IMG/VR virus record: IMGVR_UViG_3300025914_000042
Location: 1 to 26,600 of that record
Source of the DNA: a virus
DNA length: 26,600 bases
Direction: 5' to 3' (one strand)
In this document: positions 10,311 to 12,623 of the stretch, one piece after another
Position numbering within the stretch: position 1 is the stretch's first letter
How the letters are laid out: every line of letters starts with the position of its first letter
The notes under the pieces: generated by a model
What the model was told of the DNA's origin: nothing
What the model saw: the letters and a program-made list of their open reading frames with translations, nothing else
Databases searched by the model: none
Translations under genes and position numbers: made by a program

Positions 10311-11324
10311 TTATTTTGCGTTTTGGATGAAGTTTTCCAACTCCTGGTACTCCTGTAAGGGGTCCAGTTCGCGTGAACGATGCCTACATATTTCGCTTTG
10401 CCGAAGGTACGTTTTTTTGTTATCCAGCCGTTTAATTTCTTTGTCCCAGCCTTCGATATTGTCTCGCTCCACGAATATGCCGGCCGATCCTGCATTCTCC
10501 TTCAGGCCAAAGGTGGGCGTACTGATCACTGGGATGCCGTTGCACATCGCTTCTGTGCAGGTCATGCCCCATGATTCATATGCTGACGGCATCAGCAGAA
10601 TTCGCGTCTGCTGGTAAATGGGCAGGATATTGGGGGTGTTATCCATCAAAATCACATTGGGCAGCTTCTGGATGATCTGCTCGTCATAGCTTCCCTTGAC
10701 GCCCAGAAACATCCTATCCGGCATCCGCCGGGCGATCTCATAGAAGATGTTCCCGCCCTTGTTGTCGTTCAGGTTGATCAGGGTAATAAACCGGTTCCTG
10801 CTGGGATCGGGACAGACGTCATATTTCCGCCAGTCAACCGGCGGGTGGAGGACCATGGATGGCTTGTTGTAGTTCAATAGCTCTTTGGCTGAGCGGCTGT
10901 TATAGATAACATTTACGGGCAGACGGTCGTCATTCAGAAAGTTATAGTGCTGGGATGTATTATGGGCGATGAAAATCACCGGCTTTTTCATAGTTCTACA
11001 AATCAGAGCCGTCCACTTGGTGTATTCTAGGTGGGTGATTGCCTTCTGTGCCCAATGGAAGTGCGTGTCCAGCTGCTTTTCCGCAGGGAACACCTCTACC
11101 CCTTCATAATCGTACGGCTTGGTGATGCCATATTTCTTGCCCTGGTGAAGCAGGACGCGGCATTGGTGGCCCCTGCTCACGAGGTATTTGGCCATGTTGT
11201 GAATGAAATATTCTCCCCCTCTTTGGTTGCACCCGTTGCGGCCGACCTACTTAAAGATCGGCCGCAACGGGCAATTGTGTTTAGGTGGATAAAGATGCAC
11301 TGAAAATAGCAACCTAAGCCCCAT
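10311..11324 (-). CDS. GT4-family glycosyltransferase, frame broken by a hairpin with in-frame TAG
   Basis: A GT-B retaining glycosyltransferase: residues counted from the internal Met at 11195 include DNKGG (144-148), a Rossmann-like C-terminal half and ESWGMTCTE (207-215), the E-x7-E motif of GT4. The intact N-terminus is upstream. ATG 11324, overlapping the HNH stop by 11 bases, gives MGLRLLFSVHLYPPKHNC, the first strand and loop expected of GT4. Then comes a GC-rich hairpin with TAG at 11249-11247, after which the same frame resumes as NQRGGEYFIHN and MAKYL. Starting at 11195 (294 residues) would omit the first strand and glycine loop. The product is either restored by translational bypassing (TGC to TGC gives about 323 residues) or the gene is inactivated. 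Probable substrates are virion or host surface glycans. Confidence 0.85.
10382..10393 (-). repeat. AAATATGTAGGC element inside the GT4 3' end
   Basis: The coding strand reads AAATATGTAGGC, one base different from the copies at 7874 and 12653, within the GT4 reading frame 78 bp before the connector ATG. It could be chance, or a promoter element for the neck genes. Confidence 0.3.
11229..11273 (-). other. Hairpin coding gap with in-frame stop inside the GT4 gene (candidate bypass element)
   Basis: The coding strand has TGC (11273-11271), then a perfect 14-bp stem: arms 11271-11258 (CCCGTTGCGGCCGA) and 11245-11232 (TCGGCCGCAACGGG), with a 12-base loop TCTTTAAGTAGG. A second TGC (11231-11229) follows. 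TTG/CAA can extend the stem past a 2-base bulge. The TAG in the loop is in frame with both coding parts. 39 bases separate the two TGC codons; if the insert instead runs to the GGG codon it is 51 bases, a multiple of three. No T-run follows, so it is not a normal terminator. Confidence 0.75.
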
Positions 11325-11853
11325 AAGTATAGTTTTTGTTGTGACGAATATTTTTGCAAAAAACCTCAAATCTGATATTCATGCTCGAATGATTATACGC
11401 TTCTCTGGCGCTATCATAATATACACCAGACAGGAGATGTAAAACAGTCTTTGACAAGTGATTGTCTTTACCTTTGGGCGATCCTTTCCGGAGACCTGTC
11501 GCGTTTGCGTGAATCTGGTTTAATGAATTGTTGCACCATTCTAAATTACTGGCAGCATTGTTAGCCTTATTGCCATCAATATGATTTACCTGATCATACC
11601 CATTAGGATTTGGTATGAACTGATTCGCTACCAATCTATGCACACGGTAAGAAGAAAAATCATCTTTCGATCTCCATAATCGAATTTTCATGTACCCCTT
11701 TTCATCAGGCGAAGGTCTAAGCATCTTGCCCGCTTTTGTACATGGGCCCCATCTATTCTGCGTTTTTTTGGCAAAACTTCTTATTCGTCCATCCGTGCTG
11801 ATCTCAAACAATTGTTCATAACCTTTTAGCGGCTGCCATTTTTCTTGTATCAT
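11314..11853 (-). CDS. Free-standing NUMOD4/HNH homing endonuclease
   Basis: 179 residues. A NUMOD4 module at ~4-27 (EKWQPLKGYEQLFEISTDGRIRSF) is followed by an HNH_3 nuclease core at ~70-110 (HRLVANQFIPNP ... VNHIDGNKANNAASNLEWC), with His91-Ile-Asp93 and Asn103 in the expected catalytic/metal pattern. A C-terminal part (~130-179, SGVYYDSAREAYNHSSMN) resembles a NUMOD1-type DNA-binding segment. Its ATG overlaps the GT11 stop (ATGA) and its stop overlaps the GT4 start by 11 bases, so it sits exactly at an operon junction. Such genes spread by cutting uninserted relatives. The broken GT4 frame directly downstream makes it a candidate partner of that hairpin. Confidence 0.92.
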   Translation of the reverse strand: MIQEKWQPLKGYEQLFEISTDGRIRSFAKKTQNRWGPCTKAGKMLRPSPDEKGYMKIRLWRSKDDFSSYRVHRLVANQFIPNPNGYDQVNHIDGNKANNAASNLEWCNNSLNQIHANATGLRKGSPKGKDNHLSKTVLHLLSGVYYDSAREAYNHSSMNIRFEVFCKNIRHNKNYTYGA

Positions 11854-12623
11854 ATCACTATCGAATTTTCAGGATATAAGTCTTTCGTTTCCATCGGTAT
11901 ACTCCAGGCTGGTCCAAACCAATTGGATGGACAGACAATCTTCTTTTCAGGATGCTCTCCCAGGATAGCCGCCATAAGGGAGTAGGATGAATTGCCTGTG
12001 ATGAAGTGCTTGCACGCCTTCATAAGCTTAAAATCATTGATGTAATCCTGCTCTTTGCTCTGGAATATATATCCGTTTGGTCGCAAGTCTTTGGTAATTT
12101 CGAATGCACAATCCGGATCATCAGAGAAGACGACAAATTTTTGGCCTACGGGGAAAAGGCTCATTGCCAGTTTATAATATTCGGCAGTTAGTCTGGGATG
12201 GTATTTATTGTCATAGTCGCCTAATCGCACATGCACGGCACAAACGTCTTGAGGAGAAAATTCATCCTTCATCGTGAAGTAATGCCTCACCTCATCAATA
12301 CAATGCTTGAAGTATTTTTCGCTTTGGAAGTGTCCGGCAAGATCCCAATTGCCAGCAGGTAGGTAAATGTCATGATATCCCCATGTGTATTCCCGCTTGA
12401 TGAGCTGGGGGTAGTCCACTGCCAGTCGAGGCAGCGGGTTGACGAAGTATTTGTCCAGCTCAATATCTTCAGTTGAGCCAAAACGCTCTTTATGATCCCA
12501 GTTTATGAATGGGGGAAAGCCGTAAGGTTGACAGCTTTTCCGGGCAATACCTATCACGGCAGCTATCTGAAACAGCGCATTGGCGAACCTGCCATACCGC
12601 CCAATAGAGGAATTTGTCAGCAT
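11850..12623 (-). CDS. GT11-family (alpha-1,2-fucosyltransferase-like) glycosyltransferase
   Basis: 257 residues. Two GT11 hallmarks are clear: an N-terminal GRYGRFANALFQIAAVIGIAR (8-28, compare GGLGNQMFQYA), and HVRLGDY at 131-137, which is the HxRxGDY donor-site motif. A C-terminal FITGNSSYSLMAAIL follows, the usual NSSFSWWAA region. Members move fucose or a related sugar from the GDP-sugar onto glycans. The likely acceptor is a virion or lipopolysaccharide glycan, which the sequence does not decide. It begins 39 bp after the FkbM-like gene, with a TAATATGTAGGC element in the gap, and is followed by the HNH gene. A slightly short N-terminal loop (GRYGRFAN) is the only deviation I see. Confidence 0.88.
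   Translation of the reverse strand: MLTNSSIGRYGRFANALFQIAAVIGIARKSCQPYGFPPFINWDHKERFGSTEDIELDKYFVNPLPRLAVDYPQLIKREYTWGYHDIYLPAGNWDLAGHFQSEKYFKHCIDEVRHYFTMKDEFSPQDVCAVHVRLGDYDNKYHPRLTAEYYKLAMSLFPVGQKFVVFSDDPDCAFEITKDLRPNGYIFQSKEQDYINDFKLMKACKHFITGNSSYSLMAAILGEHPEKKIVCPSNWFGPAWSIPMETKDLYPENSIVI

Follow-up and report, generated by a model that had tools for sequence, protein, structure and literature searches.

Ribosomal bypassing of a 51-nt hairpin insert is the best explanation, with a probability of roughly 70%, for a phage glycosyltransferase (GT4) gene that is split near its 5' end by a hairpin with an in-frame stop codon. The hairpin and an adjacent NUMOD4-HNH homing endonuclease gene probably together form a mobile cassette that homed into the start of phage GT4 genes. 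The original prediction of a bypass element in a phage glycosyltransferase has gained comparative support from 16 other records, from five insert lengths covering three phases, from covariation, from the associated endonuclease and from purifying selection.

The split GT4 gene and its surroundings

The window, which is the whole stretch of DNA analysed, is a 26.6-kb IMG/VR virus record (IMGVR_UViG_3300025914_000042, positions 1 to 26,600). The portal, protease, major head and head-tail connector genes all lie on its minus strand. Between the major head and connector genes are located, in order, a GT11 gene (11850-12623), the NUMOD4-HNH gene and the GT4 gene (11324 to 10311), and this gene array is also present in relatives. 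An insert-free relative occurs in a MAG of Taibaiella (Bacteroidota), so the host of the window phage may belong to the Bacteroidota.

The GT4 gene opens at ATG 11324 with 18 codons, the last of which, TGC (11273-11271), is the take-off codon. It is followed by 39 nt (CCG...GGG), a second TGC and AACCAAAGA, after which GT4 resumes and runs to a TAA at 10311. The gene matches the Pfam Glyco_trans_1_4 profile. An insert-free homologue modelled with AlphaFold2 (pLDDT 92) has a GT-B fold, for which Foldseek retrieved MshA, BshA and PimA. In this model the insertion point separates residues 15 and 16, where helix 1 begins after strand beta-1. Close GT4 relatives were not found among annotated phages, and the window and L001 records contain no second GT4 copy. 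The endonuclease gene carries the Pfam domains NUMOD4 (2.1e-10, 41.1 bits) and HNH_3 (1.5e-7, 31.4 bits), both above the Pfam cut-offs, and is assigned to HNH in PHROGs.

Table 1. Coordinates of the GT4 gene, its insert and the adjoining endonuclease gene in the window
Feature	Position	Strand	Remarks
NUMOD4-HNH homing endonuclease gene	11314..11853	-	between GT11 and GT4; overlaps the GT4 start
GT4 segment 1 ('exon 1')	11271..11324	-	MGLRLLFSVHLYPPKHNC; N-terminus matches insert-free homologues
Insert	11220..11270	-	51 nt; missing in insert-free homologues (L002, L003, L004 and about 70 others)
Hairpin	11231..11272	-	18 bp including G.U pairs; arms 11272-11255 / 11248-11231; hexaloop UUAAGU
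In-frame TAG	11247..11249	-	loop edge; codon 8 of the insert
Second TGC, candidate landing codon	11229..11231	-	not kept in L262, L269, L260, L256
3' tail	11220..11230	-	GCAACCAAAGA; class I pattern N4-5 + CMA + AGA before GGN
GT4 segment 2 ('exon 2')	10311..11219	-	GGEYFIHNMAKYL... to TAA; Pfam Glyco_trans_1_4

Insert-free homologues (47-72% identity), the related phage genes that the original prediction had proposed to look for, read HNC-GGE or a close variant, with TGC directly followed by GGN. The predicted arrangement, a GT4 gene split by a hairpin with an in-frame TAG between two TGC codons, is seen in the window, but its dimensions have changed: the stem has 18 bp when G.U pairs are counted and not 14, and alignment with the homologues sets the insert at 51 nt (11270-11220) instead of 39 bases. 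A TGC-to-TGC hop in the window would therefore leave three extra residues (NQR). The hairpin has a folding energy of -38.1 kcal/mol, compared with a mean of -15 for shuffled sequences (z -8.8), and ranks best among the near-perfect hairpins of the window. No gathering-level Rfam match was found in the window, the best E value in the region being 0.13.

A family of inserts at the same codon

IMG/VR was scanned with a degenerate pattern (V, I or L, then HLYPPxHNC, then a codon not starting with G), which returned 15 records, namely L001 and 14 others (L256-L269). The hairpin insert was located at the exact site in all 14. A further insert-bearing record, L302, was recovered in a scan for HNH relatives. 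The resulting 17 records (window, L001, L256-L269 and L302), a lower bound from the viral records scanned, contain 10 distinct stem sequences. The window insert is thus not a chance structure, since a hairpin insert occupies the same site in 16 other records, and its presence in all 17 disposes of the sequencing error that had been named as a possible refutation.

Relative to insert-free homologues, the inserts form a short non-coding gap in a conserved coding sequence. The gap measures 51 nt in the window, L001 and L262, 50 nt in L256, L260 and L269, 49 nt in L302, 48 nt in L259, L264 and L267, and 47 nt in L257, L258, L261, L263, L265, L266 and L268, so that all three reading phases are represented. 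Only 16-18 codons precede the gap, with 15-17 residues ahead of the take-off codon. Every element contains an in-frame stop, at insert codon 8 or at codon 2 (the latter in L001, L256 and L260), which does not adjoin the take-off codon.

Readthrough or reassignment of TAG, yielding a GT4 with 17 extra residues, fits the window, where the insert is in frame and TAG is its sole stop. However, the occurrence of all phases excludes readthrough for the family, together with any other decoding step of fixed phase: relatives with inserts of 47, 49 or 50 nt are not in frame, and class II (see below) uses TGA stops. Moreover, TAG terminates eight of the 36 listed ORFs of the window, L001 has two TAGs, and a suppressor tRNA was rejected because no tRNA gene was found in the window or in the scanned pieces of L001. 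Already excluded for most of the family, readthrough is very improbable.

Two classes of elements are distinguished by their tails. In class II (CTCTTGGGGGTGTRTC..., 47-49 nt), the tail consists of N4-6 and TGC before GGN. This TGC precedes resumed reading in any phase and is kept where 1-nt indels shift the phase, as would be expected of a matched landing codon. In class I (the window type, 50-51 nt), the tail consists of N4-5, CMA and AGA before GGN. A TGC lies three codons ahead of GGN in the window and L001 and is absent there from L262 (TTG), L269 (GTC), L260 and L256; L260 has a TAA in the frame of segment 2 three codons before GGA. The matched landing codon of the original prediction thus stands for the window, L001 and class II, fits half of the family, and is not a general rule within class I. 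The failure of the landing match in these four records and the NQR added in the window weigh against bypass, as do the distance of the stop from the take-off codon, the lead of 15-17 residues, which is too short for a nascent-peptide signal of the T4 kind, and a stem far longer than that of T4.

Several further observations were made around the insert site. In the 47-nt class II elements of L257, L258, L263, L265 and L268, a UGAUG stop-start at the loop opens an ORF (MHPQEVLCGAEWM...) that is in frame with segment 2, and this ORF is out of frame in the 48- and 49-nt elements. The AUG of the class II loop was rejected as a general start, being out of frame or missing elsewhere. The L302 element (2440-2580) has a GTG start, HLC for HNC and a longer stem, and is perhaps decaying. 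The insert-free GT4 gene of L237 (2501-2560; JACDGL010000024.1, Taibaiella MAG) reads CCT CCG TAA CCG ACC CAC AAC, where a TAA in frame is flanked by two identical CCG codons close to the insert site. A 6-nt stop-hop at this point would give YPPTHNC, which has the length of the homologues; the TAA is known from a single copy and may be a mutation or an assembly error. For the window element, the exact pattern was absent from 395 genomes sampled from the phylum of L237. A 14-mer stem arm proved too unspecific as a search probe, and model matches near 25 bits in two bacterial genomes were no better than an antisense chance match.

Conservation and covariation of the stem

The 10 distinct stems comprise 180 base-pair cells, of which 179 are paired (99.4%), and 13 of the 18 base pairs show compensatory change. 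The covariation score is 0.778, whereas slid partners reach at most 0.142. The stems contain 30 G.U cells and no A.C cells; because a G.U cell would read A.C in the complementary strand, selection appears to act on RNA of mRNA sense. In every element, the G of the take-off UGC or UGU is the first base of the stem, which thus includes the take-off codon; the T4 stem was folded alongside.

L001, whose GT4 is 94% identical to that of the window, carries the same insert with four substitutions. These comprise a change from U-A to A-U on both sides of the stem, a change from A-U to G-U and a single change in the loop. Read in frame, not one of the four is synonymous, and the second TAG of L001 is due to one of them.

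The main alternative to bypass is RNA-level excision, in which enzymes of the host or the phage would remove the approximately 50 nt from the mRNA as a mini-intron and rejoin HNC-GGE regardless of phase. The structure on the RNA strand, the frame-free lengths of 47-51 nt and the precise TGC^...^GGN borders fit such excision equally well. Nevertheless, it is unlikely, as the element is far below the size of a self-splicing ribozyme and has no Rfam intron match, and its 3' border lies at a variable distance of 7-11 nt past the stem. To our knowledge, there is no bacterial machinery for such mini-introns.

Two other functions were considered for the element. An intrinsic terminator was rejected because no conserved U-tract follows the stem. 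The tail may also serve as a Shine-Dalgarno landing aid; GAGG is present in class I, but its spacing gives no consistent landing codon.

Selection on the interrupted gene

Between the window and L001, three of three changes before the insert and the single change between the insert and Met 11195 are synonymous, and this uniformity of the four flanking changes has p = 0.002. The remainder of the gene has a pS of 0.386 and a pN of 0.031, with a pN/pS of 0.08 in segment 2. In other pairs, the divergence of the upstream HNH region matches that of GT4 segment 2 (85% and 86% in L259/L267, 71% and 72% in window/L269, and 71% and 72% in L259/L264), and pN/pS of segment 2 in these pairs is 0.13, 0.23 and 0.24, respectively. 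As the window insert has 51 nt and that of L269 has 50 nt, a change of phase appears to have been tolerated in a working gene. In segment 1, 22 of 33 changes pooled over five separate pairs are synonymous (p = 3e-8), although part of this divergence may predate insertion. No stop or indel was found in segment 1 in the 17 records. These substitution patterns indicate that both halves are under protein-level purifying selection after insertion.

It could be argued that GT4 no longer functions, or is not needed, in any gene that has received the cassette, and that the hairpin is simply parasitic DNA; some insertions are very recent (L263), and L302 has a GTG start and HLC in place of HNC. Such decay is improbable given the low pN/pS (0.08-0.24) in pairs where cassette and gene diverged together, the intact segment 1, the strong covariation of the hairpin and the lack of a second GT4 copy in the window or L001 records.

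Under reinitiation, the stop would release a short peptide and GT4 would be translated anew from an internal Met (in the window, 11195). This would make use of an open 294-aa ORF and, in the 47-nt class II elements, of the UGAUG-opened ORF. Such a restart would lose beta-1 (residues 2-6 of the insert-free homologue model), as the original prediction had argued for the first strand of the fold, together with the invariant G-E loop. Homologues do not start at the position of Met 11195, which the prediction had listed as a possible refutation. The changes from L001 in segment 1 and the GGEYFIHN link, being synonymous only, also speak against reinitiation, as does the class II AUG, which class I lacks and which is not in frame in elements of 48 and 49 nt. 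Reinitiation is therefore quite unlikely.

Association with a homing endonuclease

In 11 of the 17 records, about 43-57 nt separate the end of an upstream NUMOD4-HNH gene from the insert. L001 retains an in-frame remnant of the endonuclease (about 2649-2883), in which a core deletion has cut HNH to a 77-aa ORF and the hairpin has been kept with compensatory change; L257, L261, L266, L265 and L268 have the hairpin only. Among insert-free GT4 genes, 65 offered 500 nt or more of upstream sequence, and none of these has a NUMOD4-HNH gene directly upstream; no comparable hairpin was found next to some 80 other HNH genes. In L170, L192 and L263, a related NUMOD4-HNH gene is located one gene further upstream of GT4, with no hairpin beside it.

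Insert-bearing genes are scattered over the GT4 tree, which requires 9-11 label changes (about 10 gains or losses). Beyond 120 nt of segment 2, L263 and the insert-free L185 share 98-100% identity, but this falls to 77-88% in segment 1 and the 24 nt that open segment 2. The L257 and L268 hairpins agree at 94%, compared with about 71% for the greater part of their GT4 segment 2. The scatter and the local conversion pattern are the marks expected of homing with local gene conversion.

Proposed mechanism

In the proposed cassette, the endonuclease gene is placed at the GT4 start and the hairpin about 50 nt further in, within the presumed cut site, where it may shield the carrier from cutting. Translation would proceed to the UGC or UGU at the base of the stem; there, ordinary elongation would be opposed by the hairpin and the stop codon of the gap. 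The peptidyl-tRNA-Cys would then release, while the stem keeps the flanks 4-6 nt apart, and decoding would restart at the GGN of segment 2 in any phase. The restart would follow a matched UGC in class II. In class I, CMA-AGA would precede the restart, guided by imprecise pairing or by geometry; the window would perhaps use its own second UGC instead.

Comparison with known bypassing systems

A direct precedent for bypassing is T4 gene 60, whose bypassed gap comprises 50 nt, with the GGA take-off codon inside a stem and mobA located upstream (PMC5009743, PMC3014915). Gene 60 and mobA are called a mobile DNA cassette in the title of Bonocora et al. (2011, PNAS 108:16351), as cited in PMC10236363. 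The GT4 family resembles this system in having a gap of about 50 nt near the 5' end, a stem-loop that includes the take-off codon, a stop in the gap and an upstream HNH gene. It differs in its gene (GT4 and not a topoisomerase), in its phages and in its spread over many lineages instead of one, and no sequence kinship was detected. The constant 18-bp stem of the GT4 family spans the gap and is much longer than the T4 take-off stem-loop. Bypass in T4 needs a nascent-peptide signal 25-30 residues before the P site (PMC5009743), whereas the take-off codon of the GT4 family is codon 16-18, compared with codon 46 in T4, which leaves no room for such a signal. The stop of the GT4 family is not next to the take-off codon, and matched landing occurs only in class II, the window and L001; landing with minimal pairing in T4 is named in the title of Herr et al. 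(2004), listed in the references of PMC3014915. Since two defining T4 features fail, the GT4 family is not filed as a member of the T4 element, although it probably works alike.

Many short inserts, the byp elements of Magnusiomyces capitatus mitochondria, are apparently bypassed, and matched codons are not always present (Nosek et al. 2015, as cited in PMC5009743). These elements are mitochondrial and occur at 81 sites in many genes, whereas the GT4 family occupies one gene position in phages and is accompanied by a homing endonuclease. In the tape-measure gene of the Corndog (Cluster O) mycobacteriophage, an HNH gene is inserted at the gene start, and its authors weighed bypassing, with an ACG start as the other option (PMC4351075).

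Bypassing was considered unique to T4 gene 60 among T4-related phages in a 2010 review (PMC3014915), and few natural cases were counted in a 2016 review (PMC5009743). If bypassing in the GT4 family is true, the naturally varied stems, tails, lengths and landing codons, together with the insert-free sister genes, would allow the rules of take-off and landing to be studied by comparison. It would also mean that the pairing of a homing endonuclease with a ribosome-skipped insert arose more than once.
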